Of a stretch of 64,000 nucleotides of DNA, positions 17,205 through 40,614 are shown one piece after another. Both the position numbers and the translations under genes were made by a program. This stretch comes from Desulfarculus baarsii DSM 2075 (GTDB lineage: Bacteria > Desulfobacterota > Desulfarculia > Desulfarculales > Desulfarculaceae). Where the stretch lies: the NCBI RefSeq assembly GCF_000143965.1, contig NC_014365.1, forward strand, positions 2,569,501-2,633,500, in the 5' to 3' direction. Within the stretch, counting starts at the first letter, position 1, and every line of letters starts with the position of its first letter. Under the pieces are notes generated by a model that made no database searches, was not told the DNA's origin, and saw only the letters and a program-made list of their open reading frames with translations.

Positions 17205-17244
17205 TTATCAACGACAGGGCAGACCTTGCGCCAAGGAGTCGGCA

Positions 17245-21498: not shown

Positions 21499-21500
21499 TC

Positions 21501-23267: not shown

Positions 23268-24798
23268 CACCAACGCCCCGGCCACGGCGGACCGTCCGCT
23301 CATCCTGGCCATTCAACTGGCCCGCCTGGGTGATTTCTTGCAAACAACGCCCCTGCTGGCCCACCTGGCCCGGCGACGCCCCCATGCCCGCATCGCGGCC
23401 ATGGTCACGCCAGAGCAGGCCCCCTTGGCCCGACGTTGCCCGGACCTCGACGAGGTCATAATCATCAAACGTAACGAAATCAACGCATTATCTGGAAGCT
23501 GCCCTGATCGGCGCGCCCTGGCCCAACTCGACAACCGCCTCGCCGAGCTGCGCCCCCGGCACATCTTCAACCTCAACATGAGCATGCCCAGCGCCCGCCT
23601 GGCCCAGGCCTGGCCCAAGGCCGGACTGACGGGTTGGCGCTTTTCGGCCCAAGGCGACGCCCTCGTCGGCGAGCCCTGGTTTGGTTTCATGATGAACATG
23701 GTGGCCGATCGCCGCCTGACCAGGCACCATCTCAGCGACTTGCTTGCCTCTTTCGCCGACCCGCCGGGCCCGGCCGTGGGACGCCTGCGCTATCAGGTCG
23801 GCCCGCGTTCGCGCGAACGCGCCGCCCAGCTTTTGCCCCGCGACGGTCGGCCCGTGGTCGCCCTGCAGCTTGGCGCCAACAATGACCTGCGCCGTTGGCC
23901 GGTCAACCGCTTCGCCGCCCTGGCCGACGGGCTCATCGCCGCCGGTTGCGCACCGTTGCTGATCGGGGCGCGCGCCGAAGGCGACCTCGGCCGGCGCATG
24001 AAGGCGTCCATGGCTGGATCGCACAACCAACTCATCGATATCATGGGTAAAACAGACCTACCAACCTTGGCCGCCGTGCTGGAAGGCTGCGCCTTGGTTG
24101 TCTCCAACGACACCGGCACCTTGCACCTGGCCACTGCCGTGGGCGCGCCGACGCTGGCCCTGTTCATGGGCCCGGCCCAGGCCCACGAGACCGGGCCTTA
24201 CGGCCAGGGGCATCTGGTGTTGCAGGCGCGTGACATCTGCGGGCCGTGCCAGGAGCAAACGCCCGTTTGTGGCGGGGCCGCGCCGTGCCGCCGGCTGATC
24301 GCCCCCGAATTGGTCCTGGCCACCGGCCTGGCCCTGGCCACCGGCCAAAGCGCCGCCCAAGCCTGCCGAAACGTGGATTTCGGCCCAGGCGTGCAGGCCC
24401 TGGAAGGCGTCATCGACCGCTTTGGCCAACGTTACAGGCCGCTTGGGCCCAACAAGCCGCTGGGGCGCATCGAGGCCTTGGCCCTGGCCCTGCGCGAGGC
24501 CGGGCGCGTGCTGATCCGTTCGACGCACGATTTTCGCGCCGCCGAACTGGCCGCCGAATTGGCCGCCGAACACCTGCCGCCAAGCGACCAGGCCCGCGCC
24601 GACATTGACGCCTTGGCGCGAACGGCCCAGACCCTGGCCTGGGCGGCGGCGGATGGCCAGCGCGAGGCGGCCTTGGGCCTGTTGCCGCGAGCGCCGGAGC
24701 TCAAGCCCCTGGCCTCGCTGGTCGGCGGCGGCGCGCCGCGTCTGGCCTTGGCGTGCCAGGCCGCGACCCAAAGCCTGGAGATTTGCGCCGCGTTGTGA
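23251..24798 (+). CDS. Family 9 (heptosyltransferase-type) glycosyltransferase
   Basis: This 515-aa protein has the GT9 pattern: LAIQLARLGDFLQTTPLL at the N-terminus, VVALQLGANNDLRRWPVNRF and LVVSNDTGTLHLATAVGAPT with LALFMGP after it. A Cys-rich stretch (DICGPCQEQTPVC) follows, as in several GT9 proteins. A helical extension of about 150 residues forms the C-terminus. GTG 23251 has GAGG 6 bases upstream and lies 17 bases inside the previous gene. In this place it probably adds a sugar to a flagellin glycan, though a lipopolysaccharide role is possible. Confidence 0.82.
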   Translation: MPGFSSTNAPATADRPLILAIQLARLGDFLQTTPLLAHLARRRPHARIAAMVTPEQAPLARRCPDLDEVIIIKRNEINALSGSCPDRRALAQLDNRLAELRPRHIFNLNMSMPSARLAQAWPKAGLTGWRFSAQGDALVGEPWFGFMMNMVADRRLTRHHLSDLLASFADPPGPAVGRLRYQVGPRSRERAAQLLPRDGRPVVALQLGANNDLRRWPVNRFAALADGLIAAGCAPLLIGARAEGDLGRRMKASMAGSHNQLIDIMGKTDLPTLAAVLEGCALVVSNDTGTLHLATAVGAPTLALFMGPAQAHETGPYGQGHLVLQARDICGPCQEQTPVCGGAAPCRRLIAPELVLATGLALATGQSAAQACRNVDFGPGVQALEGVIDRFGQRYRPLGPNKPLGRIEALALALREAGRVLIRSTHDFRAAELAAELAAEHLPPSDQARADIDALARTAQTLAWAAADGQREAALGLLPRAPELKPLASLVGGGAPRLALACQAATQSLEICAAL

Positions 24799-24940
24799 TC
24801 GGGCAGTGGCCTTAGTGACGAAAAAACTTTTGATCATGCGGTGTTATGGTTTATCATGACCGCAGATGGCCCCCGCGGCCAACCATTGCCGCCCCCGCGC
24901 GGCCATCTCCCCCGCCGAAGGGAGAAACCAGGAGAACGAC

Positions 24941-25555
24941 ATGGAAATTATCTTGGACGGCAAGGCCATTGCTGACGAATTGACCGGCGAAAACCTCATG
25001 GACATGCTCCAAGACCTGGCCGAAAAACGCCTGGGCGACGACCTGGCCATTCGTGAGCTTTTGATCAACGGCTCTCCCTACGAGGAAGCGGTCCACGGCG
25101 CGCCCGAGGAAATCTCGCGCCAGGCCATCCAGCGCCTGGAGATCGAAACCATCAGCACCCGCGATCTGGCGCTGGGTTTTCTGCAAAACTTCCCGCCGAC
25201 CCTGGCCACACTGGCCGAGGCCATCGAAAAAGTGGCCGAGCTTTTCCGCATCGGCGACGAACAGACGGCCAACGAGGAGTATCTGCAGTTTCTGGAAGCG
25301 CTGGAAATCCTGCTGGAAACGCTCCAGCAATCCAGCGACGCCCTGGGCCTGGACATGGAGCGCATCCACGCCGACGGCGTCTCGGCCCAACACCGCCTGG
25401 AACGCCTGGCCGGCCTCACCACCGAAATGCTCGCCGCCCAGGAACAAGACGACTGGGTGCTCTTGGCCGACCTGCTGCAATACGACCTCAAGCCGGAGAT
25501 GAACGCCTGGGCCAAGCTCATGGAACAGATGCGGCGGATGGCCCTGGCCTGCTGA
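24941..25555 (+). CDS. Unrecognised acidic helical protein in the glycosylation island
   Basis: This 204-aa protein matches no family I know. It is acidic and almost wholly helical, with leucine-rich amphipathic helices (LTGENLMDMLQDLAEKRLGD, EEYLQFLEALEILLETLQQS) and no signal or membrane segment. ATG 24941 has AGGAG 6 bases upstream. A 142-bp gap precedes it, so it may have its own promoter, but I saw no clear sigma-54 or sigma-28 site. Cytoplasmic chaperone or adaptor roles would fit its build; that is speculation. Confidence 0.6.
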   Translation: MEIILDGKAIADELTGENLMDMLQDLAEKRLGDDLAIRELLINGSPYEEAVHGAPEEISRQAIQRLEIETISTRDLALGFLQNFPPTLATLAEAIEKVAELFRIGDEQTANEEYLQFLEALEILLETLQQSSDALGLDMERIHADGVSAQHRLERLAGLTTEMLAAQEQDDWVLLADLLQYDLKPEMNAWAKLMEQMRRMALAC

Positions 25556-25574
25556 CGCCCGAACGGCGGTCGTC

Positions 25575-27158
25575 ATGGATCACCTGGCCCGCAACCTGGA
25601 GGCCCTGGCCCAGCGCCAGCCCGAACTGAGCCGCCGCCTGGCCGGCTTGGCGCCCCACCCCGCCGCGCGGATCACGCCCAGCCGAGATGGCTGGCCCACC
25701 CTGCGCCTGGACGGGCAGTGGTGGTGCTCTTCGGTGGCCCCGTGGGATGAGGGCCGCCGCCTGGCCGCCGAGGCGCCGGACGGTCCGTTGGCCGTGCTGG
25801 GCTTTGGCCTGGGCTATCACGTCGAACCATTGGCCGATGGCGACGTGCTGGTCTGGGAGCCCGACGCCAGGCTCTTGCGCAGCGCCCTGGCCGCCCGCGA
25901 CATGAGCGCCTGGCTGGCCAAGGTGCGCCTCTGCCTGGAACCACCCAGCGCCGACCAGGCCGCCGGCCGGGCCGTGCTGCTGCACCGGCCCACGGCCCGG
26001 CTTCACCCCGAGGCCGCCGCCGTCCTGCAGCGCTTGGCCACCGCCCCGCGGCCGGCTCGACGGCCGACACGACCGCGGGTGTTGCTCGCCCCACCGATCA
26101 TGGGCGGCTCGCTGCCCGTGGCCCTGTGGTGCGCCCAGGCCCTGGAGCGTCTGGGTTGCCAGGTGCGGGTTTTGCCCTTTCACCAGGCCGCGCCGGTCTA
26201 CGAGGTCATGCGCCGCAGCGCCCAGCCCATCGAGCGCATCGGCAAAGCCCAGGCGCCGATGCTGGCCTTTTTCAGCGAACTGGCGCTGCTGGCGGCCGAT
26301 GATTTTCAGCCGCACCTGTTTTTGGCCCTGGCCCAAGCGCCGCTTCTGCCGCGCGCGGTGGAGGCCATGGGCGCGCGAGGGGTGGCCACGGCCTATTGGT
26401 TTGTCGAAAACCATCGCCTCTTCGATTACTTCAGCCTCATCGCCGCCAGCTACGAGCACTTTTTTCACATCCAGGGCGAACCTTTTGACCACGCGCTGAG
26501 CCGCCTGGGGGCCAACGGGCATCACCTGCCGCTGGCCGCCCATCCGCCTTGCCACCGCCCCGTCAGCCTCTCCGACGACGACCACCGTGATTTCGGCGCG
26601 CCCATCGGTTTCATGGGCTCGGGGATTTATGGCAATCGCCGCCGGGCCCTGGCCAAAGTGGCCCAAAGCGACCTTGGCCTACGCCTCTGGGGCAGCGAAT
26701 GGCCGACCGAGGGGCCCTGGGCCCGGATCGTCGCCCTGGGCGGCCGCCGCCTGGCCGACGACGAAGTGGTCAAGGTGTACAATGCCTGCCAGGCGCTGAT
26801 CAACCTGCACTCCGACGTGGATCCGGCCACGCCTCTGGGCCGTAGCGACTTCATCAACCCGCGGACCTTCGAGATCCCGGCCTGCGGCGGCTTGCAACTG
26901 GTGGACATGGCCGCCGGCCTGGACCAGGCGTTCGACCTGGGCCGCGAGTTGGTCGTGGTGGAAAGCGTGGCCGATCTCATCGAAAAGGCGAGACATTTCC
27001 TGGCCCATCCCGCCGAGCGCGCGGCCATCGCCGCCGCCGGACGACAAAGGGTGCTGGCCGAACACACCTATTTTCATCGCATGAGTCAACTGCTGGATAT
27101 CTGCCTGGGCGCCGGGCAAGAAGGGGTGGCCAAAGATGAGCGATCCGCGCGCGCTTAG
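25575..27158 (+). CDS. Maf N-domain fused to CgeB-like glycosyltransferase
   Basis: The protein is 527 aa. Residues about 40-130 (WWCSSVAPWDEGRRLAAE, PLAVLGFGLGYHVEPLADGD, VLVWEPDARLLRSAL) match the N-terminal domain of Maf/DUF115 proteins such as the one at 18810. From about residue 170 it is CgeB-like: RVLLAPPIMGGSLPVALWCA, TAYWFVENHRLFDYF, GFMGSGIYGNRR, ALINLHSDVD and RTFEIPACGGLQLVD. The two parts are normally in separate proteins. It overlaps the next gene by 23 bases. Confidence 0.78.
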   Translation: MDHLARNLEALAQRQPELSRRLAGLAPHPAARITPSRDGWPTLRLDGQWWCSSVAPWDEGRRLAAEAPDGPLAVLGFGLGYHVEPLADGDVLVWEPDARLLRSALAARDMSAWLAKVRLCLEPPSADQAAGRAVLLHRPTARLHPEAAAVLQRLATAPRPARRPTRPRVLLAPPIMGGSLPVALWCAQALERLGCQVRVLPFHQAAPVYEVMRRSAQPIERIGKAQAPMLAFFSELALLAADDFQPHLFLALAQAPLLPRAVEAMGARGVATAYWFVENHRLFDYFSLIAASYEHFFHIQGEPFDHALSRLGANGHHLPLAAHPPCHRPVSLSDDDHRDFGAPIGFMGSGIYGNRRRALAKVAQSDLGLRLWGSEWPTEGPWARIVALGGRRLADDEVVKVYNACQALINLHSDVDPATPLGRSDFINPRTFEIPACGGLQLVDMAAGLDQAFDLGRELVVVESVADLIEKARHFLAHPAERAAIAAAGRQRVLAEHTYFHRMSQLLDICLGAGQEGVAKDERSARA

Positions 27159-28185: not shown

Positions 28186-30603
28186 CTAGTCGCCGCTGGA
28201 GCTGGGCAACTCGGCGATGGCGCTTTCCAGCGCGGTCTGGGTGTTGCTCAGCGTCGACAACGTGGCTTCCAGCCGGGCGAATTTTTCCACCTGCCGCTGG
28301 CGATAAAGCTCTAGCCTGGCTTCCTCGCTGTCTATCTTCTTGTCGATGTTCTTGACGATGCCCTCGTAGTTGCTGATCAACACCGAGCAGATGCCGGTCT
28401 CGTCGTTGGTCTGGGTGTCCATCAGGTCGTACATCTGTTTGGCCACGCCGCTGCTGCCGGTGGTCGTGTCGTTGATGAACAGCTTGGCCACCGCCTCGGG
28501 ATTGTCGGCCAGGGCGTCTTCAAGGATGTCTTCGTCGATGATCCAGCGGCCCTCGTCGTCGGGGTTGCTGGTGATGCCGATCTGCTGAAGCAGGGTGTAG
28601 GCGTCCTCGCCGTCGGTCAAGCCGGGGATGGAGCTGTTGAGGAGGGAGTCGATCTGCGACTTGGCGATCTGGAAGGCGTAGTTGCCGATCAAGACGCCGG
28701 TTTCGTCGCCTTCGGCGTCATACTTGGTGTTGCTGCGGATGTAGTCCTGCACGTAGTTGACGGCGTTGATGAAGGCCTCGATCTTGTCGGCCACGGCGGA
28801 GGCGTCCACCGAAACGGTCACTCGCGAGGTGCCGCCGTCGACCAGGGCCAGCGAAACGCCGGTGATCACATCCGTGACGGTGTTGGAGGTGCGCTGCAAA
28901 AACACGTCGCCCGTCGGGAAGCCGTCGACCTGGATCATGGAGTTGGTGGCCAACTGGCTGGTGCTGAAGCCGCCGCCGGCGTCGCCGCCGCTGGAAAAAT
29001 TGGAGCCGGTGAAGTCGTGCTCGACGCTGGAGATCTGGTACTGCGCGCCGGTGTTGGTGCCGGTGAGCACCAGCCGATAGCTGTTGGGCAGGCCCAGGCC
29101 ATCGTTGACGATGCTGGCCTCGACGCCGGGGTTGTTTTCGTCGTTGTTGATCTTGTCCACCAAGTCGGCCAGCACGGTGCCGGCCTCCACCGCAACACTG
29201 GTGGTTTCGCCGCCGTAGGTGTAGGTGAAGGTGGCGTCGGAGTCGGTGACGGGGGTGATGGTGGTGTCGGAAAAACCTTCGTGGATCAGCTTGCAGTTCT
29301 GCGCCAGCCCGGTGTCCTGGCCCTGCTGCTTGTCCGGGGCGAAGACGTTGACCTGAAAATCGTCGCCGTGGGTCACCGTGCCGGCGTCCAGCTTGATCGT
29401 GAAGCCCTGATCCACTTCGTAGCTCTGATCGGCGTCGGAGAGGCTGACCGTGCCGGTGTTGCCCAGCGAGTCGGTCCAGCGCATGACGATGGTGTCGCCG
29501 CCGCCGCCTGCCTGCAGGTTGCCGGCGCTGATCACCTCGAAGGAAAAAGTCTTGCTCACCGAGCCTTGATAGTTGCCCTCGGTGCTGATGGCCGGGCCGG
29601 ACCAAGTGCCCAACTCGGCGTCATCGATGTCGTTGGCGTAGGCGTTGACCGAAAAACTCTCGCCGTCGCTGACCGAACCCTCGCCAAGCTGAATGAAAAC
29701 GCCCTTTTCCACCTCGATGCTGTCGCCGGGCGTATAGTCGGCGGGCACGGTGATCGTGCCCGAGCCGCCGCCGGCGCTGGCGGTCCAGTTCAACTCGAAA
29801 CTGTCGGCGCCGATGGTCGAGGGATTGGAGCTGGAGGCCACGGTGAAGGTGTAGCCGTAAACGCTGGCCACGGATTTGTCGCCGGTGAACATGCCGGTCA
29901 GGCCGATGGAGGCCCCGCCCCATGAAGACGTGTCGCTGACGACCATGTCCTTGCCGCCCAACGACAGCGCCGTGGGGTTTTGCGTGGCCGTGATGCGCCC
30001 GGCGTCGCCGCCGGTCCCGCTGGTCAGCACCAGGTGGTATTGATTGCTGGAGGTGCCGTCGTTTTCGATGCTGGCCACGATGTTTTCGCCGGTGACGGCG
30101 TTTATCTTGTCGACGATGTCGTTCAGCGTGTCGGCGGCGTCGATGGCCACGTTGTAGGACACGCCGTTGGATTCAAGAATAAGCGTGCCGCCCGAGCCGC
30201 CGTAGGCCGTGGTGTCGGCGTCGGCGCAGCCGGCGGTGCTGACGATGTGTTTGACGTTTTGCCCAACCGTGACGGTGGATGCGCCGGTGGAGGCGCTGGA
30301 GGTGGCCGTGGCCGTGACCACGCTGGTGTTGCTGGAGGTGGCCGCCCGCGAGAGGAATTCCTTCTCGGTGTCCATGGCCCCGGCGGCTTCCTCGAGGGCC
30401 AGCATGCGCGTGTTCAGCGCGGTGATGACCTCGATCTTTTCTTCCCAGGTTGCCTTCCAGGTCTCGAGCCTGTTCATGTTGATGGATTCGATCTCCACCA
30501 ACTGGTCGATGACTTCGTTGAAGTCGGTGCCCGAGCCAAGGCCGGAAATAACGATCGAGCCCGAAAGCAGCGCCGAGGTGAGGGCGGATGTGGAAGAAGC
30601 CAT
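28186..30603 (-). CDS. fliD: FliD, filament cap protein (enlarged)
   Basis: FliD caps the filament and guides flagellin folding. The N-terminus (ISGLGSGTDFNEVIDQLVEI, then NMNRLETWKATWEEKI) and the C-terminal coiled coil (GIVKNIDKKIDSEEARLELY with RQRQVEKFARLEATLS after it) are typical. At 805 aa it is well above the 450-690 aa usual for FliD; the excess is in the central beta-rich region, which is rich in Gly, Thr, Ser and Asp and has repeated DSLGNTGTVSL-like strands. ATG 30603 has GAGG 7-8 bases upstream. Confidence 0.93.
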   Translation of the reverse strand: MASSTSALTSALLSGSIVISGLGSGTDFNEVIDQLVEIESINMNRLETWKATWEEKIEVITALNTRMLALEEAAGAMDTEKEFLSRAATSSNTSVVTATATSSASTGASTVTVGQNVKHIVSTAGCADADTTAYGGSGGTLILESNGVSYNVAIDAADTLNDIVDKINAVTGENIVASIENDGTSSNQYHLVLTSGTGGDAGRITATQNPTALSLGGKDMVVSDTSSWGGASIGLTGMFTGDKSVASVYGYTFTVASSSNPSTIGADSFELNWTASAGGGSGTITVPADYTPGDSIEVEKGVFIQLGEGSVSDGESFSVNAYANDIDDAELGTWSGPAISTEGNYQGSVSKTFSFEVISAGNLQAGGGGDTIVMRWTDSLGNTGTVSLSDADQSYEVDQGFTIKLDAGTVTHGDDFQVNVFAPDKQQGQDTGLAQNCKLIHEGFSDTTITPVTDSDATFTYTYGGETTSVAVEAGTVLADLVDKINNDENNPGVEASIVNDGLGLPNSYRLVLTGTNTGAQYQISSVEHDFTGSNFSSGGDAGGGFSTSQLATNSMIQVDGFPTGDVFLQRTSNTVTDVITGVSLALVDGGTSRVTVSVDASAVADKIEAFINAVNYVQDYIRSNTKYDAEGDETGVLIGNYAFQIAKSQIDSLLNSSIPGLTDGEDAYTLLQQIGITSNPDDEGRWIIDEDILEDALADNPEAVAKLFINDTTTGSSGVAKQMYDLMDTQTNDETGICSVLISNYEGIVKNIDKKIDSEEARLELYRQRQVEKFARLEATLSTLSNTQTALESAIAELPSSSGD

Positions 30604-30671
30604 GGGTCGTCCTCGAATTAGAGTGGGGCAAGGACTTCGCCGCCGCCGATGGCGGAGTTCACCGCTTGTAA

Positions 30672-30688
30672 AGCAACATGCGTGCCAG
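30672..30688 (-). promoter_or_regulatory. Sigma-54 promoter of fliD-fliS
   Basis: On the minus strand CTGGCACGCATGTTGCT carries TGGCACG, four bases, then TTGCT. The only deviation from YTGGCACGRNNNTTGCW is C at the R position. It lies 68 bases before the fliD start codon, within the 324-bp gap upstream of fliD. Confidence 0.85.
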
Positions 30689-30873
30689 CAATGTCCAAGA
30701 CCCGATAATGCAAGCATGACAATTGGTTGCCAACACTTTCATTATCAGCGGCATGGCGTCCTTCCGGGCAACATCTGCCCAGCGGCCCACGCCTTACAAG
30801 GACCGCATCGGCATGTCTTGCCCAAGACTTGAATGAATTCGACAAATCACCGGTTTTATAATAGGCGATCAAC

Positions 30874-30927: not shown

Positions 30928-33396
30928 TCAGGAAACCAGGCGCAAAATCTCGGCGACGACGTCACCGACGGGGGCGCGGCCGTTTTCGCCGCCGCGCCAC
31001 GAAAGGCAATAAAAGCCTTCGGCGGTGGGCGTCATGCTCAGCTTGTCGTAACCTCGCTGGCCAAGCACCGCGAAATGCCTGGGCCGCAGGCCGGCCAAGG
31101 CCGCTTCGATGATGGCGTAAACCTGCTGATAAGCGGCGAAAACCCGTGAGTCAACACCGCTGAAGCTCTGCTGGGCCCATTCCAGGCAGTTGACGCCGAT
31201 GACCAACACGTCCACCGCCGGCAGCTTGGCGGCCAGGGTCAGTTTGTTGCGTTCGATCTGATACAACCGGCCTTCGTGCACGCGGTTGCTGGTCAGCAGG
31301 CTGGTGGCCAGCAGTTGCTCGGCCTTGCTGGTAACGAAATCGCTGCGGTAGCCGCTGGCCAAGACGCGGGGCAGCAACTCGGGCGGACTCACCAGGCCCT
31401 CGCTCAACAGGCCGCCCGGGTAGCCCGAGACGGCCCAGCCGTTGATGGCCGGCGCGGGATGACACAGCGGCGCGGCCAGCAAGCCGACTCGCTTGGAACC
31501 GGCCATGGTCCGCCAAATATCCGGCGCGGCCATGTCGGCCAGACTTTTGGGGTTGTCCATGCCCAAACGGCCGGACAGGCCGTGCTGGGCCGGCGCGCGC
31601 CCGCTGAAAAGCGTGGCCCAGCGAGCCAAGTCATCCTCGGGGTCGACGCCATCGAACATGGCCCGGCCCCAGGCCCGATGCATCAGGAAGTGGGGGGCCA
31701 CTTCGCAGACCGCCTCGGCGCCAAGCCCGCCCACCAGAAACACCAGAAGCGTCGGCGGCGTCTCGGCCACGCTGGGCGTCGCCGCGCGCTCGAGCTGAAG
31801 CCGGCTCAACGTCTCGCGGGCGGCTTGGTCGCCGGGCTGGATGGCCAGATAGCGTTCGAGATAGACATGGGCCGCCTCGACCTCGCCTTTGGCCATGCTC
31901 AACTCGGCCAGCGCCCGCCAGGCCCACGGGTGGCCCGGGTGGGCGCAGAGGCCCTTGACCAAGGCCTGGCCGGCCTCGGCGTGGCGGCCCAGGCCCAACA
32001 AGGCCTGGGCCTGGCCCAGATGGACCTCGGCGTCGGCGATCACGTGATTGGCCGCCAGGCCGAAGTTTTTGGCCGCGTCTTCCAGCCTGTGCTCGTCCAG
32101 GGCCCGGCGCGCTTCCATTTTATATTGTCGGCCCAGCTTTTCGGCGGCCTTGGACTCGGCCACGGGCTTGAGCGGGGCCAGCCAATCCCAATGGGGCCGC
32201 GCGGCCATGGCCAGATTGATCAACTCGACGGTCAGTTGGGGGTCGTCGCCGGTGAGCAAAGTCTTGACCAGGCGTCGGCATTCGGGCTCGCCGCGCTCGT
32301 CGGCCACCAAGCGCCCGAAAACATCGATCGCCGCGGCGGCGTCGCCACGGTTGGCCTCGGCCAGGGTCCACAGGTGCAACACCTGGGGGAACTGGTTGAA
32401 GGTCTGGTTTTCGGCGAACAAAAAGTCCTCTGGCTTGCTGCGCGCCAGGTCTTGCATCTCGAAAAAGCGTCGCCCGGCCAGGCAGACATCATCCCACTGC
32501 CGTTTGTAATAATAGGCGTGAACTAAAAACAGCCAAGGATCCGGATAGTTGGGCATGGCCTCCAGGCAGGCGTGGGCGTAGGTGACGGTCTCGTCCCAAC
32601 GTTGCAGGGCGTAAAGCGCGCCCAAAAGCGGATAGTAGCAGCGCGGGAAGTCGGTGCCCGGCGCCAGTTGCTCCTGGGCCAGACGAATGGCCGTGAGCGA
32701 CTCGTCCACGGCCTCCAGGCAGGTGTCGATGCGCGAGGCCAGGGTCTGGGCCAGATAGGCGTGGGCCTTGAAGTTGTGGGGTTCGCGCTCGATGGCTTGG
32801 CGCAGCATGCCCAGCCGCCGCTGATGCTTGGCCTCCATGGTCTGGGGGTCCAGGTTGTAGCCGTAGTGGGTCAGCTTGACGTCCGAACGGGTGTAGTGGC
32901 CCTTGATGCGCGGTTCGTTGTGCACCAGGCCGGCGTAATGAAAGCCCACGCCATTGCGGAACAGGCGCGGGTGCAGCAGGAACGTCGACCCGCCGCCGGG
33001 CACGTCGTTGTAGAGCTTGAACAGGAAGCAGTTGAGCCCCTCCGGCGCGTTGGTCAGTTGGCGCATCAGGGGCGCGGTTTGCTGGTCGAGTTCCTCGTCG
33101 GCGTCGAGGATGAGGATCCAGTCGCCGGTGCAGTAGCCGATGGACTGGTTGCGGTGGGTGGAAAAATTGTTTTCCCACGGGTGGTGATAAACCTTGGCCC
33201 CGTAGGAGGCGGCGATCTCCACGGTGCGGTCGGTGGAGCCGGTGTCGACGACGATGATCTCGTCGACCCAGGGCTTGACGCTTTCCAGGGCCCGCGGCAA
33301 CATTTTCTCTTCGTTCTTGACCATCATGGCCACGCTGATGGTGGGCCTTTTGCCTTGGCCTTTAGGGGCGACATTTTTTTGTCTACTGCCAGCCAT
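30928..33396 (-). CDS. GT2-TPR protein with a degenerate alkaline-phosphatase-fold tail
   Basis: The protein is 822 aa and has three parts. Residues about 20-260 are a GT2 domain (ISVAMMVKNEEKMLPRALES, IIVVDTGSTDRTVEI, DWILILDADEELDQQ). Residues about 260-560 are TPR repeats. Residues about 560-822 resemble type I phosphodiesterases of the alkaline phosphatase superfamily: LLVFLVGGLGAEAV, LFSGRAPAQHGLSG, VGLLAAPLCHPAPAINGW, HFAVLGQRGY. The metal ligands and nucleophile of that family seem to be replaced. ATG 33396 has GGAGG 4 bases upstream. Its place between fliD and the flagellins suggests flagellin glycosylation. Confidence 0.78.
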   Translation of the reverse strand: MAGSRQKNVAPKGQGKRPTISVAMMVKNEEKMLPRALESVKPWVDEIIVVDTGSTDRTVEIAASYGAKVYHHPWENNFSTHRNQSIGYCTGDWILILDADEELDQQTAPLMRQLTNAPEGLNCFLFKLYNDVPGGGSTFLLHPRLFRNGVGFHYAGLVHNEPRIKGHYTRSDVKLTHYGYNLDPQTMEAKHQRRLGMLRQAIEREPHNFKAHAYLAQTLASRIDTCLEAVDESLTAIRLAQEQLAPGTDFPRCYYPLLGALYALQRWDETVTYAHACLEAMPNYPDPWLFLVHAYYYKRQWDDVCLAGRRFFEMQDLARSKPEDFLFAENQTFNQFPQVLHLWTLAEANRGDAAAAIDVFGRLVADERGEPECRRLVKTLLTGDDPQLTVELINLAMAARPHWDWLAPLKPVAESKAAEKLGRQYKMEARRALDEHRLEDAAKNFGLAANHVIADAEVHLGQAQALLGLGRHAEAGQALVKGLCAHPGHPWAWRALAELSMAKGEVEAAHVYLERYLAIQPGDQAARETLSRLQLERAATPSVAETPPTLLVFLVGGLGAEAVCEVAPHFLMHRAWGRAMFDGVDPEDDLARWATLFSGRAPAQHGLSGRLGMDNPKSLADMAAPDIWRTMAGSKRVGLLAAPLCHPAPAINGWAVSGYPGGLLSEGLVSPPELLPRVLASGYRSDFVTSKAEQLLATSLLTSNRVHEGRLYQIERNKLTLAAKLPAVDVLVIGVNCLEWAQQSFSGVDSRVFAAYQQVYAIIEAALAGLRPRHFAVLGQRGYDKLSMTPTAEGFYCLSWRGGENGRAPVGDVVAEILRLVS

Positions 33397-33552
33397 GATC
33401 CCTCCGCCGCTGGGAAAAATCTCGTCAAACTGTTTAGTTAGCATTGAGTTTATGTTTCCGCCGCGGCGGTGTCAACCACCCATGACGACGCCCGCGGCGA
33501 TTGACGCCACCGCGGCGCGGCGCTTTTTTTCGACCCCACGACAAAAAAAGCC

Positions 33553-33579
33553 TTAACCCGTTTTTCAAGATGCCGATAA
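33553..33579 (+). promoter_or_regulatory. Sigma-28 promoter of flagellin gene 1
   Basis: TTAACCCG (33553-33560), 11 bases, then GCCGATAA (33572-33579), a perfect -10. The -35 is a partial match to TAAAGTTT. T7 and A7 tracts (33524-33530 and 33543-33549) lie just upstream. The predicted leader is about 100 bases. Confidence 0.85.
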
Positions 33580-33689
33580 GTCCCTTGAAACAACTGGTGT
33601 GACGCCGGGCTAATCTCACGCAAGGGGAAAGGCACACCGTCCAAGGCGCCAAAAGGATATTGGCGCACACGAACCAAGGAGGGGTTCCA

Positions 33690-35393
33690 ATGAGTCTCAT
33701 TATCAATCACAACATGATGGCCGCCAACGCGGCGCGCAACCTGACGACGACCTACGGGCGGCTTTCGACGTCGGTGCAGCGCCTGAGCTCGGGCCTGCGC
33801 ATCAACTCCGCCGCCGACGACGCCGCCGGCCTGGCCATCCGCGAAATGATGCGCGCCGACATCGCCACCCTCAACCAGGGCGTGCGCAACGCCAGTGACG
33901 CCATCAGCATGATTCAGACCGCTGAAGGCGCCATGAGCGTCATCGACGAAAAGCTCATCCGCATGAAGGAGCTGGCCGAACAGGCCGCCACCGGCACCTA
34001 CACCACCGCCCAGCGCATCATCATCAACTCCGAGTATCAGGCGATGGCCGCGGAAATCGACCGTATCGCCAACGCCACCGACTTCAACGGCGTCAAGGTG
34101 CTCGACGGTAGCCTCCTGACTCTGCACGACGGCTCTGGCATGAAGATCCACTTCGGCACCGGCAACGACGCCGCCGAGGACTACTACTTCATCACCATCG
34201 GCGACATGCGGGCCACCTCGGTCACCGGTTTGCAGGTCGGCGGCGGCACCGGCCTGGATTCCGTGTGGCGCACCACCGGCCTGGACATGGCCGCCTCCAC
34301 CGACACCATGGCCAACAGCGGCGCCTTCGGCATCCAGACCAGCACCGACGGCGTGACCTGGACCACCTACGGCTTCCTGACCGTCGACGACGACGACACC
34401 CTCGACGACGTCGTGGCCAAGTTCAACGACGGCGCGACCAGCCGGGGCAACGCCGCCACCAACAGCATCACCTTCGACTCCGGCTTCTCCTCGACGGACC
34501 TGGCCGGCGACACCATCACCATCAACGGCCACGCCTTCACCTTCAGCACCAGCACCAGCACCAGCACCGCCAACACCATCGGCCTCCAGGGCCTGGGCTC
34601 GGTGGCCTCCATCGCCGCCGCCACCCAGTTCGCCATCAACACCTGGGCCTCGGTGGGCAACGCCAACGGCGTCTACGCCACCATCAACGCCACGGCCAGC
34701 ACCCTGACCGTCAGCCTCACCGACCGCGACTTCGGCGACAACACCTCGACCCTGGCCAGCAGCAACACCACCCTGACCCTGGGCGGGGCCACCTTCAGCG
34801 GCGGCGGAACCGACACCACCATCACCGCCGCGGCGGTCGAGGACGAGGACGGCACGGGCTACGAACTGCAAATCACCGCCGAAGGCAACACCCAGGTGCG
34901 CCTGGTCCAGACCAACGGCGCGGCCTTCACCGCCGCCAGCGCCACCGTGGGCGGCACGCCGACCACCGGCACCACCGTCTCCGAAATGGCCCTCAACACC
35001 GGGGCGGCGGCCTATGTCTCCGACTGGGCCGACGGCGACGACGACACCGAGTGGTTCAGCCGCAACGCCTCTGGCGCATGGTGGGACGGCGCCAACATCA
35101 TCACCCAGAGCGCGGCCCAGCTCGCCCTGGCCCAGCTCGACGACGCCATCAACCGCAAGGACACCGCCCGCGCCTCCTTGGGCGCGACCCAGAACCGCCT
35201 GGAAAACACCATCACCAACCTGCAGATCCAGGCTGAAAACCTCCAGGCCGCCGAATCGCGCATCTCCGACGTGGACGTGGCCCTGGAAATGACCGAGTTC
35301 ACCCGCAACAACATCCTGGCCCAGTCGGCGGTGGCCATGCTGGCCCAGGCCAACAGCCTGCCGCAACTGGCCCTGCAGCTCCTGGGCGGTTGA
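33690..35393 (+). CDS. fliC: Flagellin 1
   Basis: This 567-aa flagellin begins MSLIINHNMMAANAARNL with VQRLSSGLRINSAADDAAGL, and ends with the conserved SRISDVDVALEMTEFTRNNI and a C-terminal helix to LQLLGG. The central domain (about residues 180-460) is Thr/Ser/Gly-rich and contains a short TSTSTSTA run. AAGGAGG precedes the ATG. It has its own sigma-28 promoter and a downstream hairpin. Its centre is close to that of flagellin 2 and unlike that of flagellin 3. Confidence 0.96.
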   Translation: MSLIINHNMMAANAARNLTTTYGRLSTSVQRLSSGLRINSAADDAAGLAIREMMRADIATLNQGVRNASDAISMIQTAEGAMSVIDEKLIRMKELAEQAATGTYTTAQRIIINSEYQAMAAEIDRIANATDFNGVKVLDGSLLTLHDGSGMKIHFGTGNDAAEDYYFITIGDMRATSVTGLQVGGGTGLDSVWRTTGLDMAASTDTMANSGAFGIQTSTDGVTWTTYGFLTVDDDDTLDDVVAKFNDGATSRGNAATNSITFDSGFSSTDLAGDTITINGHAFTFSTSTSTSTANTIGLQGLGSVASIAAATQFAINTWASVGNANGVYATINATASTLTVSLTDRDFGDNTSTLASSNTTLTLGGATFSGGGTDTTITAAAVEDEDGTGYELQITAEGNTQVRLVQTNGAAFTAASATVGGTPTTGTTVSEMALNTGAAAYVSDWADGDDDTEWFSRNASGAWWDGANIITQSAAQLALAQLDDAINRKDTARASLGATQNRLENTITNLQIQAENLQAAESRISDVDVALEMTEFTRNNILAQSAVAMLAQANSLPQLALQLLGG

Positions 35394-35426
35394 TCAGCCA
35401 GGCGACTGAAGACTGAACAAACTATC

Positions 35427-35463
35427 GCCCCCGTCGGCCCGCGCCGGCGGGGGCCTCGTCTTG
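35427..35463 (+). terminator. Hairpin after flagellin 1
   Basis: GCCCCCGTCGG (35427-35437) pairs with CCGGCGGGGGC (35444-35454) with one G-U pair. The following CTCGTCTT is only weakly T-rich. The same stem sequence recurs after flagellin 2, which suggests copying with the gene. Confidence 0.6.
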
Positions 35464-35510
35464 GCCACGCGCCGCCGAGGATAAAATCCGTTTCACGTAT
35501 CGAAAAAGCT

Positions 35511-35537
35511 CAAGTTCCAGCCCGGCGCTGCCGAAAA
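35511..35537 (+). promoter_or_regulatory. Sigma-28 promoter of flagellin gene 2
   Basis: CAAGTTCC (35511-35518), 11 bases, then GCCGAAAA (35530-35537; 7/8 to GCCGATAA). The same 8-mers with the same spacing occur before flagellin 3. A TTGAAAGC element follows at 35543. The predicted leader is about 165 bases. Confidence 0.8.
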
Positions 35538-35709
35538 GGTTCTTGAAAGCTCTGGAGAAGGCGACGGCCTTCATGCCCGTGGGGACGGGTGACAAGACTT
35601 TCGAGATTGGCACGGGGACCCGCCAACGCATCGCTAGGGAGTCAAAAACAAAAGCCGCTCCGATATGGACTTCGGGCCGCGGCGCAAAAACAACCACGGA
35701 GGGGATCAT

Positions 35710-37401
35710 ATGTCTCTTTACATCAACCACAACATGATGGCGTCCAACGCCGCGCGCAACCTGTCCAACGTCTACGGTGACCTGGCCACCTCGGTGCAGC
35801 GCCTGTCGTCGGGCCTGCGCATCAACTCCGCCGCCGACGACGCCGCCGGCCTGGCCGTGCGCGAGATGATGCGCGCCGACGTCGCCGCCCTCAACCAGGG
35901 CATCAGGAACGCCTCCGACGCCATCAGCATGATTCAGACCGCTGAAGGCGCCATGAGCGTCATCGACGAAAAGCTCATCCGCATGAAGGAGCTGGCCGAG
36001 CAGGCCGCCACCGGCACCTACACCACCGCCCAGCGCTTGATCATGGACTCGGAATACCAGGCCATGGCCGCGGAAATCGACCGTATCGCCAACGCCACCG
36101 ACTTCAACGGCATCAAGCTCCTCGACGGTAGCCTGCTGACCCAGCACGACGGCTCGGGCCTCAAGGTCCACTTCGGCACGGGCAACGAGGCCGCCGAAGA
36201 CTACTACTACGTCTCCATCGGCGACATGAAGGCCACCTCCATCACCGGCCTGCAGGTCGGCGGCGGGGCCGGCGAAGGCGCGACCTGGCGCACCACCGGC
36301 CTGGACATGGCCGCCTCCACCGACGCCATGGCCAACAACGGCACCTTCGGCATCCAGACCAGCACCGACGGCACGACCTGGAGCAACTACGGCTTCCTGA
36401 CCGTCGACGCCGGCGACACCCTCGACGACGTCGTGGACAAGGTCAACGCCGGCAACGCCGCCACCAACAGCATCACCTTCGCCGCCGGCTCCTCCTCGAC
36501 GGACCTGGCCGGCGACACCATCACCGTCAACGGCCACGCCTTCACCTTCAGCACCGGCACCAGCACCAGCACCGCCAACACCATCGGCATCCAGAACCTG
36601 GGCTCGGTGGCCTCCATCGCCGCCGCCACCCAGTTCGCCATCAACACCTGGGCCTCGGTGGGCAACGCTGACGGCGTCTACGCCACCATCAACGCCACGG
36701 CCAGTTCCCTGACCGTCAACCTCACCGACCGCGACTTCGGGGCCAGCACCGACACCCTGGCCAGCAGCAACACCACCCTGACCCTGGGCGGGGCCACCTT
36801 CAGCGGCGGCGGAACCGACACCACCTCCGTCACCGCATCGGCCGTGGCCGACGCAGACGGCTCGGGCTACGAACTGCAGCTCACCGGCGGCACGGGAGTG
36901 CAGGTGCGCCTGGTCCAGACCAACGGCGCGGCCTTCACCGCCTCCACCGCCACCGTGGGCGGCACGCCGACCACCGGCACCACCGTCTCGTCCATGGCCC
37001 TCAACACCGGGGCGGCGGCCTATGTCTCCGACTGGGCCGACGGCGACGAGGACAGCGAGTGGTTCAGCATCGGCTCCACCGGCCCGACCTGGGACGGCGC
37101 GCACATCCAGACCCAGAGCGCGGCCCAGCTCGCCTTGGCCCAGATCGACGCGGCCATCAGCAAGAAGGACACCGCCCGCGCCTCCTTGGGTTCGACCCAG
37201 AACCGCCTGGAAAACACCATCACCAACCTGCAGATCCAGGCAGAAAACCTCCAGGCCGCCGAATCGCGCATCTCCGACGTGGACGTGGCCCTGGAAATGA
37301 CCGAGTTCACCCGCAACAACATCCTGACCCAGGCGGCCGTCTCCATGCTGGCCCAGGCCAACAGCCTGCCGTCACTGGCCCTGAGCCTGCTGGGCGGCTA
37401 G
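35710..37401 (+). CDS. fliC: Flagellin 2
   Basis: This 563-aa flagellin begins MSLYINHNMMASNAARNL. Its N-terminal 175 and C-terminal 100 residues are nearly the same as in flagellins 1 and 3. The central domain aligns with flagellin 1 throughout (GFLTVDAGDTLDDVV, LAGDTITVNGHAFTFST, ATINATASSLTVNLTDRDFG). CGGAGGGG precedes the ATG and could be both ribosome site and CsrA target. It has a separate sigma-28 promoter and terminator, so it is a single-gene unit. Confidence 0.96.
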   Translation: MSLYINHNMMASNAARNLSNVYGDLATSVQRLSSGLRINSAADDAAGLAVREMMRADVAALNQGIRNASDAISMIQTAEGAMSVIDEKLIRMKELAEQAATGTYTTAQRLIMDSEYQAMAAEIDRIANATDFNGIKLLDGSLLTQHDGSGLKVHFGTGNEAAEDYYYVSIGDMKATSITGLQVGGGAGEGATWRTTGLDMAASTDAMANNGTFGIQTSTDGTTWSNYGFLTVDAGDTLDDVVDKVNAGNAATNSITFAAGSSSTDLAGDTITVNGHAFTFSTGTSTSTANTIGIQNLGSVASIAAATQFAINTWASVGNADGVYATINATASSLTVNLTDRDFGASTDTLASSNTTLTLGGATFSGGGTDTTSVTASAVADADGSGYELQLTGGTGVQVRLVQTNGAAFTASTATVGGTPTTGTTVSSMALNTGAAAYVSDWADGDEDSEWFSIGSTGPTWDGAHIQTQSAAQLALAQIDAAISKKDTARASLGSTQNRLENTITNLQIQAENLQAAESRISDVDVALEMTEFTRNNILTQAAVSMLAQANSLPSLALSLLGG

Positions 37402-37441
37402 GGCCAAACCGGCCGCCTTTGGGCCCCAAACACATCGTCAA

Positions 37442-37474
37442 AGCCCCTGTCGGCCCACGCCGGCGGGGGCTTTC
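37442..37474 (+). terminator. Terminator after flagellin 2
   Basis: AGCCCCTGTCGG pairs with CCGGCGGGGGCT (stem ends at 37471) and is followed by TTTCG. It is a near copy of the hairpin after flagellin 1. Confidence 0.7.
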
Positions 37475-37526
37475 GCCGTGGGCCGGTCAAATGGCATAAA
37501 AGTGATTCGACACGCCAAATTATTGT

Positions 37527-37553
37527 CAAGTTCCGAGCCCGACGCGCCGAAAA
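37527..37553 (+). promoter_or_regulatory. Sigma-28 promoter of flagellin gene 3
   Basis: CAAGTTCC (37527-37534), 11 bases, then GCCGAAAA (37546-37553), identical in both boxes and spacing to the flagellin 2 promoter. TTTGAAAGC follows at 37558. The predicted leader is about 140 bases. Confidence 0.8.
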
Positions 37554-37700
37554 GGTCTTTGAAAGCATTGAAACGGCCTCCGCCCACTGCCCCCCCCTGA
37601 GGCGACCCGGTTTCAACGCCCCCTCGATCGCAAGATAGCAGCAGTTGTCCGCTCGACAGGGAGGTTGGGCCGTGGGTAACCCATGGAGGCAGGGGGACGT

Positions 37701-39407
37701 ATGTCTCTTTACATCAACCACAACATGATGGCGTCCAACGCCGCGCGCAACCTGTCCAACGTCTACGGTGACTTGGCCACCTCGGTGCAGCGGCTGTCGT
37801 CGGGCCTGCGCATCAACTCCGCCGCCGACGACGCCGCCGGCTTGGCCGTGCGCGAGATGATGCGCGCCGACATCGCCGCCCTCAACCAGGGCGTGCGCAA
37901 CGCCAGCGACGCCATCAGCATGATCCAGACCGCTGAAGGCGCCATGAGCGTCATCGACGAAAAGCTCATCCGCATGAAGGAGCTGGCCGAGCAGGCCGCC
38001 ACCGGCACCTACACCACCGCCCAGCGCTTGATCATGGACTCCGAATACCAGGCCATGGCCGCGGAAATCGACCGTATCGCCAGCGCCACCGACTTCAACG
38101 GCATCAAGCTCCTCGACGGCAGCTTGCTCACTCAGCACGACGGTTCGGGCCTCAAGGTCCACTTTGGCACGGGCAACGAGTCGGCCGAGGACTACTACTA
38201 CGTCTCCATCGCCGACATGAAGGCCACTTCCATCACTGGCCTGCAAGTCGGCGGCGGGGCGTCCGGGGCGGAGGCAAGCGTCTTTCGCACCAACAGCCTC
38301 GACATGGCCAGCACATCCGACACGCTAGACCATTATGGGGCTTTCGGCATACAGCTAAGCAACGATGGCGCTGACTGGGGCCGATATGGCTACGTCAATT
38401 ACGGCCCCGGCGACACCCTCGACGATATCGTCAACAATATCAACCGCGGCAACGCCGGCGGCAACTTGGTTGACTTCAGCACCTGCACCACCACCGAGTT
38501 GGACGGAGAGTCCGTCTTCGTCAGTGGTTTTGAATACAGGTTCAACAACTCAACCCTGCCGGGCCTGACCGCCATCTCCCTGACCACCTTGAGCATCGGC
38601 ACCCAGGGAGCCTCCCTGGCCTCGGTGGCCCAGTGGTTCCAATGCGCCGTCAACTACAACGCCAGCGCCAGCCCGGGTTCATCCAAGTTGGTGGCTGTCT
38701 ACGATTCAGCGGAACCGCAGTCGGTCATCCTGAGCGCGACCAGCTTTGGTCTCGACGCCATGGCGATCACCAGCAGCTACTCCACCTTGGTCTTCATGAG
38801 CCCAACCTTCACCGGCGGCGGCCAAAACAACGCGGTAAGCGCCGAGGCGGTGCAAGATTCCGATGGCTCGGGCTGGGAGTTGCAGATCACCGCCACAAAC
38901 GGCCAGTACATGCGCCTGACCATGCCCGATGGCCAAGCCTTCGAGCTCAACGCGTCCAGCGAAGGCGGCGATCCCTCCGGCGACTCCGTCGACCCCACGG
39001 TGGCGCTGCGGATAGACCTATCCGGAACCTATGTTTATGCCGATTCACGGCTGGACCAGACCAACGAATGGTTCAGCCAGGGCGCGGGCGTGAGTTGGGA
39101 CGGGGCCAACATCCTCACCCAGAGCGCGGCGCAAGCGGCCCTGGGCCAGATCGACGCGGCCATCAACCGCAAGGACACCGCCCGCGCCAACCTGGGCGCC
39201 ACGCAAAACCGCCTGGAAAACACCATCACCAACTTGCAAATCCAGGCCGAAAACCTCCAGGCCGCCGAATCGCGCATCTCCGACGTGGACGTGGCCCTGG
39301 AAATGACCGAGTTCACCCGCAACAACATCCTCACCCAGGCGGCCGTCTCCATGCTGGCCCAGGCCAACAGCCTGCCAAACCTGGCCCTGAGCCTGCTGGG
39401 CGGATAA
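37701..39407 (+). CDS. fliC: Flagellin 3 with divergent central domain
   Basis: This 568-aa flagellin has ends almost the same as flagellins 1 and 2 (MSLYINHNMMASNAARNL; SRISDVDVALEMTEFTRNNI), but the centre (about residues 190-460) is different: FGIQLSNDGADWGRYGYVNY, SVFVSGFEYRFNNSTLPG, SAEAVQDSDGSGWELQITAT. It shares only scattered positions with the others there and lacks the TST run. The centre also uses more varied codons than the flanks. Two GGA motifs flank the ribosome site (37683-37697). Confidence 0.96.
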   Translation: MSLYINHNMMASNAARNLSNVYGDLATSVQRLSSGLRINSAADDAAGLAVREMMRADIAALNQGVRNASDAISMIQTAEGAMSVIDEKLIRMKELAEQAATGTYTTAQRLIMDSEYQAMAAEIDRIASATDFNGIKLLDGSLLTQHDGSGLKVHFGTGNESAEDYYYVSIADMKATSITGLQVGGGASGAEASVFRTNSLDMASTSDTLDHYGAFGIQLSNDGADWGRYGYVNYGPGDTLDDIVNNINRGNAGGNLVDFSTCTTTELDGESVFVSGFEYRFNNSTLPGLTAISLTTLSIGTQGASLASVAQWFQCAVNYNASASPGSSKLVAVYDSAEPQSVILSATSFGLDAMAITSSYSTLVFMSPTFTGGGQNNAVSAEAVQDSDGSGWELQITATNGQYMRLTMPDGQAFELNASSEGGDPSGDSVDPTVALRIDLSGTYVYADSRLDQTNEWFSQGAGVSWDGANILTQSAAQAALGQIDAAINRKDTARANLGATQNRLENTITNLQIQAENLQAAESRISDVDVALEMTEFTRNNILTQAAVSMLAQANSLPNLALSLLGG

Positions 39408-39430
39408 AACCGGCCGCGACGCGCGACAAC

Positions 39431-39462
39431 AAAACCCCGTCCGCGCGGCGGGGTTTTTCTTT
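39431..39462 (+). terminator. Terminator after flagellin 3
   Basis: AAAACCCCG pairs with CGGGGTTTT around an inner GC-rich loop and is followed by TTCTTT. The upstream A run means it could also serve the minus-strand diguanylate cyclase gene that ends at 39483. Confidence 0.8.
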
Positions 39463-39482
39463 GGCCTTGGCTTGTGGTTGGC

Positions 39483-40550
39483 TCAGTTCAGGCAGGCTTG
39501 ACTGGGGCCCAGGGGCTCCTCGCCGCAGACCAGATTCTTGCCCAGGGCCTTGGCGCGATACATGTTCTTATCGGCCCGCTCGACGACCTGCTCGGGGCGC
39601 TCGTCGTCGGGGCGAAAGCACGACACGCCAAAGCTGGCCGTCAGCCGCGCCCGTTGGCCGGCCGCCGTGAAGGCCCAGGCCGCCAGCGAGGCGCGCAGGC
39701 GCTCGGCCAACACGTAGGCCCCGTCCAGGCTGGTCTCGGGCAGCAGGCAGACGAACTCCTCGCCGCCGAAGCGGGCCAGGAAATCCACCGCGCGCAGGCC
39801 TTGCTGGCAGAGCCTGGCCACCTGGATCAGGGCTTGGTCGCCCACCAGATGACCGAAACGGTCGTTGATGGCCTTGAAGTCGTCGATGTCGAGCATGATC
39901 ACCGAGCAGGGCCGGCCAAAGCGCAGAAAGCGGTTGAACTCCACGCGCAGGCGGCTGTCCCAGGCCCGGCGGTTGGCCAGCTTGGTCAGTTCGTCGGTCA
40001 GGGCCATGGTCTCCAGGCGATCCAGCGACTGCACGGCCTTTTCCAGCTCTTGGCTCTTGTCGACCAGCTCGCCGCCCAGCCTGCTGCTGGCCTGGTTGAC
40101 CTCCTGGACCTGGAGCAGGGCCTGACGCAGCCAGCGGCCGGCCTCGTCGGCCTCGCCCAGGCGCTGGGCCGCCTCGATGGTCTTGCACAGCTCACGGCTG
40201 GCCGAATCGGCCAACTCGGCCGTCTGGCACGAGCGGGCCACGATGAAATCGGCCGTCTGACGCAGCGATTGCGCTAGGCGTTCGTTGTTGCGGCGCATGT
40301 CGATGTTGGCCTCGGCGCTGAAAAGCTGGCCAAAGACCTGGCTGGTGGTCTCGGCGGTCCATGGGCGGCCGGTGTTGAGTTGGGCGTCGACCACGCGGCG
40401 GACAAGATGCAGGTCGCCCTCGAAATAGAGATAAAATATCATGTAATTTTCGGGCGTTGCCGGTATCTGATGCTGGCCGAGGAACGGCAGCACCTTGCGC
40501 GCGATGGCAAGGGAAATTTCGAACAATCTTTTATGGTTGTCCGTTGTCAT
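39483..40550 (-). CDS. Diguanylate cyclase (GGDEF domain)
   Basis: This 355-aa protein makes cyclic di-GMP. The N-terminal 185 residues are helical and unnamed. The C-terminal GGDEF domain has LTDELTKLANRRAWDSRL, SVIMLDIDDFKAINDRFGH and the active site FGGEEF. An inhibitory I-site RAVD lies exactly five residues before GGEEF, so product inhibition is likely. There are no membrane helices, so it is cytoplasmic. ATG 40550 is chosen; an in-frame TTG at 40568 is possible. Its location beside the flagellins suggests a link to motility control. Confidence 0.9.
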   Translation of the reverse strand: MTTDNHKRLFEISLAIARKVLPFLGQHQIPATPENYMIFYLYFEGDLHLVRRVVDAQLNTGRPWTAETTSQVFGQLFSAEANIDMRRNNERLAQSLRQTADFIVARSCQTAELADSASRELCKTIEAAQRLGEADEAGRWLRQALLQVQEVNQASSRLGGELVDKSQELEKAVQSLDRLETMALTDELTKLANRRAWDSRLRVEFNRFLRFGRPCSVIMLDIDDFKAINDRFGHLVGDQALIQVARLCQQGLRAVDFLARFGGEEFVCLLPETSLDGAYVLAERLRASLAAWAFTAAGQRARLTASFGVSCFRPDDERPEQVVERADKNMYRAKALGKNLVCGEEPLGPSQACLN

Positions 40551-40614
40551 GGCCTTAAGTAATAACAAATCGCCACCCGATGCGCCAGCGACAAATTGCC
40601 ATGACGCGCTAGGG

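Follow-up and report, generated by a model that had tools for sequence, protein, structure and literature searches.

We analyzed a stretch of 64,000 nucleotides (nt) from Desulfarculus baarsii DSM 2075 (contig NC_014365.1, positions 2,569,501 to 2,633,500 of the forward strand; hereafter, the window), whose genome consists of one contig of 3,655,731 bases. The window encodes three flagellins, F1, F2 and F3, in complete, intact coding sequences arranged head-to-tail in tandem. Because silent sites, promoter and terminator all change partner at the middle gene, F2, which resembles F3 in its 5' part and F1 in its center, we read F2 rather than F3 as the probable recombinant. The history that we favor, with a probability of about 0.58, is an unequal crossover near codon 190 between the two genes of an old F1/F3 pair, which would have generated F2 as a hybrid and would have been followed by small exchanges. 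The genes and their central regions are:

33690..35393, + strand: flagellin gene F1, 567 amino acids (aa), putative first parent type; Flagellin_N E 4.7e-39, Flagellin_C E 9.8e-26
34266..35063, + strand: central region of F1, alignment codons 195-468, from segmentation
35710..37401, + strand: flagellin gene F2, 563 aa, a mosaic with F3-like 5' part and F1-like center and terminator
36286..37071, + strand: central region of F2, alignment codons 195-468; F3-like at 22 of 303 informative sites, the remainder F1-like
37701..39407, + strand: flagellin gene F3, 568 aa, putative second parent type with diverged center
38283..39080, + strand: central region of F3, alignment codons 195-468; 40% aa identity to F1/F2, G+C content at third codon positions (GC3) about 0.81

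All three proteins contain both terminal flagellin domains, far above the Pfam cut-offs (PF00669, E 4.7e-39 to 5.5e-38; PF00700, E 9.8e-26 to 3e-25). In the codon-level alignment of the three genes, F2 and F3 are 98% identical at the nucleotide level over codons 1-60, where F1 is only 81-82% identical to either. All pairs are 93-97% identical over codons 61-110 and 84-94% over codons 111-178 (84-88% for F1 against the others), drop to 78-85% just inside the C-terminal end (codons 467-500), and reach 91-95% over the last 68 codons (91-94% for F1 against the others). In the center, F1 and F2 share 89% of their nucleotides, whereas F3 shares only 58-59% with each, or 40% at the protein level. The longest identical tracts comprise 116 nt for F2/F3, 84 nt for F1/F2 and 83 nt for F1/F3. 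The maximum chi-square statistic is 148, at alignment codon 186, a value that was not attained in any of 500 permutations (permutation maximum, 17.5). When F2 was partitioned by its 425 sites at which F1 and F3 differ, the best two-segment cut fell at codon 194/195 and the next one at about codon 468, with models of 3 to 6 segments fitting equally, within about 1 unit of the Bayesian information criterion. Up to codon 194, F2 matches F3 at 65 of 85 sites, and from there to codon 468, at 22 of 303.

The mosaic structure of these genes is real, and the breakpoints, as opposed to uniform divergence, that an earlier note on this DNA had proposed are borne out. The near-identical ends that the note ascribed to all three genes are found in F2 and F3, but F1 stands apart over codons 1-60. 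Its description of the F3 center as unrelated or highly diverged holds in the second half only: the F3 center aligns collinearly and over its full length with those of F2 (E 2e-38) and F1 (E 8e-37) and, judging by this alignment, is a strongly diverged old homolog and no unrelated insert.

The conserved ends of flagellins form the D0/D1 core. Constraint on the protein, together with a strong codon bias (GC3 above 0.9), makes these ends look alike in any case; we therefore corrected for codon usage and scored the identity of codons at shared residues on a scale where 0 is the background and 1 is identity. In the controls, 127 pairs drawn from different genomes (98 for the last region), regional means ranged from -0.13 to 0.10, and the maxima were 0.29 at codons 1-60, 0.38 at codons 61-110, 0.42 in the center, and up to 0.54-1.0 in the remaining, mostly shorter regions. 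On this scale, F2-F3 scores 0.79 at codons 1-60 and 0.04 in the center, and F1-F2 scores 0.27 at codons 1-60, 0.20 at codons 111-178, 0.79 in the center and 0.77 at codons 491-542. For F1-F3, the values over the seven regions are 0.23, 0.62, 0.12, -0.09, 0.30, 0.27 and 0.04, of which only that for codons 61-110 exceeds the control range (0.62 vs a maximum of 0.38). Where all three genes encode the same residue, codons with F2=F3 and those with F1=F2 are found in ratios of 18:10 at the N-terminal end, 3:29 in the center (Fisher p 9e-6) and 3:10 at the C-terminal end. F1 and F2 are less alike at silent sites in their 5' parts than in the center (78/98 vs 208/219, p 6e-5), and the 5' identity of F2 with F3 is compatible with the same age as its 3' identity with F1 (147/162 vs 276/291, p 0.11). 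Hence, the swapped middle of F3 that the earlier note had read is not the simplest account of the locus; the recombinant indicated by silent sites, promoter and terminator is F2.

Codons 61-110 (33870-34019, 35890-36039 and 37881-38030) are the sole tract alike at silent sites in all three genes, with values of 0.62-0.68 in all three pairs that lie above every one of the 127 control pairs. This similarity could be either a conversion tract or a DNA or RNA constraint peculiar to this genome. The gene conversion of the ends suggested previously fits this tract, but elsewhere the F1-F3 ends are within the range of pairs from different genomes.

The flanking regions contain the following elements:

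33553..33579, + strand: predicted sigma-28-like promoter of F1, TTAA-N15-GCCGATAA
35510..35537, + strand: predicted sigma-28-like promoter of F2, TCAA-N16-GCCGAAAA, resembling that of F3
37526..37553, + strand: predicted sigma-28-like promoter of F3, TCAA-N16-GCCGAAAA
35427..35454, + strand: hairpin 3' of F1, -28.7 kcal/mol for 35425-35465, z -2.5
37440..37473, + strand: hairpin 3' of F2, near copy of the F1 hairpin, -29.4 kcal/mol for 37438-37480, z -4.0
39431..39457, + strand: hairpin 3' of F3, different in sequence, -16.7 kcal/mol for 39425-39462, z -2.7

The promoter pattern, a post hoc one written from the sigma-28 consensus after inspection of these regions, matched three times in the 64 kb, once per flagellin gene, with 0.04 matches expected. 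A promoter block that the earlier note had missed is common to the spacers upstream of F2 and F3 (54 of 70 nt, score 64 vs a shuffle maximum of 32); the region upstream of F1 does not align with either spacer above shuffles, yet its promoter core is alike. Overall, 111 of 160 aligned columns agree between the F1-F2 and F2-F3 spacers (score 98 vs a shuffle maximum of 41); the spacers are diverged outside the aligned part, and their leader similarity barely exceeds shuffles. The hairpins downstream of F1 and F2 have 33 of 39 nt in common (score 51 vs a shuffle maximum of 34), in agreement with the previous description of near copies, and the F3 hairpin matches neither (scores 28 and 30 vs shuffle maxima of 31 and 34). 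A terminator scan, which found 5 terminators vs 5.8 expected from shuffles, included only the F3 hairpin of the three. The F1 and F2 hairpins have no clear T run, and we call them terminators solely because of their folding, position and similarity. An Rfam scan of 33400-39600 detected no structural RNA family at the gathering threshold.

These observations suggest a scenario in which an old tandem duplication would have given rise to two flagellins, F1 and F3, whose ends would have been kept alike by protein constraint while the exposed center diverged to about 40% identity. A later unequal crossover, or an equivalent duplicating recombination, would then have fused the 5' portion of F3 with the rest of F1 at approximately codon 190. 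The resulting array would read promoter1-F1-terminator1 / promoter3-(F3 front, F1 center)-terminator1 / promoter3-F3-terminator3, with the hybrid F2 placed between its parents. Small later exchanges would have made codons 61-110 common to all three genes and, probably, the last 20 codons of F2 F3-like. We infer the crossover as a physical event, and its order, from the following features expected of such a hybrid: in its 5' part and promoter, F2 resembles the downstream gene, and in its 3' part and terminator, the upstream one, the last 20 codons excepted; F2 lies between the putative parents in the order F1-F2-F3; and the flanking spacers are partly copies of each other. Given that each gene has a predicted sigma-28-like promoter, expression of all three is probable, as is their joint assembly into a filament bearing two types of surface, that of F1/F2 and that of F3.

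For comparison within the order, 17 full-length flagellins were retained from 51 places with a Flagellin_N match, after exclusion of truncated, weak or FlgL-like matches. In a regression that predicts center identity from end identity across 117 control pairs of the order (G017, with a cut C-terminal end, was excluded), F1-F3 falls on the line (z -0.07) and F1-F2 is an outlier (z 4.68); the contrast between ends and center in F1-F3 is not unusual. In the tree of the ends, F2 and F3 form a clade (support 100/99), and a grouping of F1 with F2, named after the tree had been seen, is rejected (p 0.0007). In the tree of the centers, F3 groups with F1/F2 (100/99), its terminal branch being the longest (1.22).

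Six flagellin pairs from sister genomes of the order (G001, G002, G011, G016, G018 and G019) likewise have similar lengths, a homologous center and conserved ends, and three of these lie well above the regression line (G011, 4.01; G019, 3.24; G016, 2.68). The G016 pair (L030/L040, contig 188) consists of neighboring flagellins in another genus. A single clade of its ends is rejected (p 0.0002), and its centers form one (100/97); the corresponding test of the G011 ends is not significant (p 0.116), and the G019 pair is one clade in both trees. Different histories of ends and centers are therefore supported by the trees in one other genome of the family, G016, apparently an independent mosaic. 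Because the G011 and G016 centers are at the silent-site background (0.08 and 0.04), these events, if real, are old. None of the six pairs displays the silent-site pattern of F2, although further copies in those draft genomes were not sought systematically.

The origin of the F3 center deserves separate consideration. Its GC3 (0.805) and codon index (0.53) are under the lower quartiles (0.838 and 0.598) of 59 mechanically chosen background open reading frames (ORFs); the F3 ends have a GC3 of 0.91-0.92, and the F1 and F2 centers, of 0.97. The difference between center and ends, -0.115, is the lowest among the 17 flagellins (the other 16: mean 0.017, standard deviation 0.028, minimum -0.038). 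Such GC3 is not foreign as such, given that ORFs of the ribosomal stretch span 0.73-0.89; the codon index, which was derived from that stretch, is a weak measure, with ribosomal genes at 0.53-0.75 vs a background median of 0.67 and no separation. The mean identity to 14 family centers is lower for F3 (0.27) than for F1 (0.31) and F2 (0.32), which indicates that the F3 center also changed faster. The anomaly would fit both long relaxed evolution and import from a close unsampled relative.

The search for the F3 center in other species that had been proposed revealed no close donor, and its nearest relatives are F2 and F1, not a sequence of another lineage, as would be expected of an imported domain. 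Matches (own genome included in each count) were found in 4 of the 21 genomes of the order, those other than F1 and F2 being only 26-34% identical (the F1 center matches in 8 of the 21); in 5 of the 63 genomes of the class at E 0.01, among which the genus is represented by the host genome alone; and in 3 of 395 genomes sampled from the phylum. There were no matches among plasmids and phages, and limited scans of contigs from genomes and from viruses, using two peptide patterns for each, yielded 44 and 32 pattern stretches, none of them confirmed. Within its own genome, the F3 center matches F1, F2 and F3 only, with no silent cassette at that sensitivity. No solved structure is similar to it by sequence (best E 0.4). 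Structure prediction for F3 with the three proteins of the window only was poor (mean predicted local distance difference test score, pLDDT, 41), with helices at both ends and an unusable center, so the model does not place the border between D1 and D2.

Several observations weigh against the crossover scenario. A hybrid with a single breakpoint would not suffice, because F2 is mixed after codon 468 (F3-like at 17 of 37 informative sites), and small extra exchanges are required. From codon 553 on, that is, in the last 20 codons, F2 equals F3 at 9 of 12 informative columns, and the two may have exchanged this segment, its silent measure (0.45) being within the control range. Codons 111-178, nominally part of the F3-like front, are only weakly so at silent sites (F2-F3, 0.35; F1-F2, 0.20), and two of the six sister-genome pairs exceed this value (0.48 and 0.37), with a third at 0.34. 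Divergence is greater in the spacers than in the coding copies, which counts against a single recent event because this is unexpected without either a constraint from codon bias or repeated conversion. The F1-F3 ends outside codons 61-110, albeit within the control range, are often above the control mean, and F1-F3 silent identity is higher in the ends than in the center (72/96 vs 61/102, p 0.024), which hints at more conversion of the ends than a crossover needs. In the protein regression, F2-F3 is no outlier (z -0.72), and in the protein tree of the centers, an F2+F3 clade is not formally rejected (p 0.118). Finally, the low GC3 of the F3 center is not explained by a crossover.

Some of these points are better accommodated by repeated conversion of gene segments among three old copies with no crossover involved, whereby separate tracts would have been copied: the promoter and 5' end between F2 and F3, the center and terminator between F1 and F2, and codons 61-110 among all three. 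Several tracts, namely codons 61-110 and the last 20 codons, are required anyway, the divergence of both spacers and the excess similarity of the F1-F3 ends fit, and concerted evolution of fla genes is on record in Alteromonadales (PMC6053082, in its accessible part). We consider this explanation unlikely but worth keeping in view, and a recheck of the F1-F3 ends moved slight weight to it; nevertheless, it needs more events and predicts neither a hybrid located between its parents nor the same terminator and promoter blocks in both spacers. It is rather doubtful that, instead, the F3 center was imported from another species, with F2 and F3 being true sisters. The GC3 shift and codon index of this center, the long F3 branch in the center tree and the clustering of the F2 and F3 ends would all be accounted for, but the F3 center groups with those of F1 and F2, its few other matches are distant, with none in plasmids, phages or the pattern scans, and its GC3 is within the ribosomal range. 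Moreover, import predicts uniform silent divergence between F1 and F2 and an F3-like terminator of F2, neither of which is observed.

The close similarity of the F2 and F3 ends, and the lower resemblance of the F3 center to the 14 family centers, could also suggest that F3 arose recently as a copy of F2 and that its center then diverged rapidly, driven by selection for a new surface. This is very improbable: at the residues shared by the F2 and F3 centers, silent identity is at the background (65/100 vs 63.4 expected), and protein selection does not bring silent identity to that level. The simplest alternative, no recombination at all, with conserved ends, a free center and codon bias making the ends look alike, could explain most of the F1-F3 comparison as well as the contrast between ends and center across the family. 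For F2 it is refuted and its probability is negligible, as it leaves unaccounted for the switch between F1-F2 and F2-F3 partnership at silent sites, promoter and terminator. Thus, of the history previously outlined for this locus, duplication and recombination are supported, import is compatible with the data without being required, and rapid change of F3 is disfavored by the silent sites.

Beyond the proposed crossover at this locus, we tentatively suggest, as an idea that is more likely wrong than right, that the core and outer domain of flagellins in this family move as separate modules. Centers would be swapped between genomic neighbors (F1/F2 and, independently, G016), with ends and promoters kept distinct and the filament held to one or two surface types; F3 would be a separate surface type of its own, possibly foreign, origin.

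The genomic neighborhood of the flagellin array includes these genes:

12993-14813: FlgL-like gene (by position) adjoining flgK, with a Flagellin_N match
18810-20324: MptE-like gene, within a glycosyltransferase cluster
20344-21498: glycosyltransferase with TPR repeats (GT2-TPR), within the same cluster
25575-27158: gene with a Maf N-terminal match below the cut-off, within the same cluster
28186-30717, - strand: fliD, on the upstream side of F1
30928-33444, - strand: another GT2-TPR gene, between fliD and F1
39483-40568, - strand: GGDEF gene, after F3

A Flagellin_N search of the genome returned five places: F1, F2, F3, the gene beside flgK, and one outside the window. The latter (L005, 2963265-2963636 of the host genome) scores 33.8 bits, over the cut-off, and is located within a long open frame. 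The overlapping ORFs at 14872-15569 resemble CsrA (80 aa) and FliW (152 aa), names given by eye from the translation; the CsrA/FliW pair controls flagellin translation. Between these and fliD, several glycosyltransferase genes (17200-27158) form what is likely a flagellin glycosylation island; the MptE-like family takes in Maf flagellin glycosyltransferases. GT2 enzymes belong to a fold class other than GT-B. The modular combination of glycosyltransferase and TPR in the two GT2-TPR genes resembles that of Caulobacter FlmG, whose transferase part, as described in the accessible text of PMC7591256, is of the GT-B type.

The locus clearly illustrates how an array of tandem flagellin genes may acquire a third member and a surface of mixed type on the filament. 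A further lesson is that judging identical ends and an odd center by eye can pick the wrong gene, and that identifying the recombinant requires silent sites, promoter and terminator. The modular pattern across the family, if true, would offer a setting in which to ask whether uniform filament surfaces are maintained by selection.

More than one flagellin is present in about half of flagellated species (PMC6299084, accessible part). Our literature search found no paper combining Desulfarculus baarsii with flagellin, and among the matches listed for flagellin with unequal crossing, hybrid gene or tandem duplication, there was no title on flagellin genes. In a background survey of flagellins in 80 loci, 18 were multi-gene, all with short flagellins; 17 of these were labeled Glaciecola, Alteromonas or Pseudoalteromonas, and one, Cloacimonadota. 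Tandem arrays of flagellin genes in which the ends are conserved and the centers vary are already known, and the addition made here is a likely recombinant gene and a mechanism. In Stenotrophomonas maltophilia, the tandem flagellins fliC1-fliC2-fliC3, 67-82% identical, have, like F1-F3, nearly identical N- and C-terminal ends and a central region variable in size and sequence; in the accessible part of that report, which contains no analysis of mosaicism, they are described as one operon encoding proteins of 400-406 aa, in contrast to the three predicted sigma-28-like promoters and the defined hybrid in D. baarsii (PMC8998449). In Alteromonadales, fla paralogs are homogenized within a genome, as they partly appear to be here, although the accessible text of PMC6053082 reports this at the gene level and in another order, whereas in D. 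baarsii domain-sized tracts have different partners. FliC outer domains are exchangeable on a conserved core, with some chimeras giving working filaments, and natural recombination of flagellin outer domains is stated, with references, in the accessible part of the same paper (PMC12445082). The exchange of FliC domains described there was engineered between species, whereas the one that we propose for F1, F2 and F3 would be natural and between neighboring genes.

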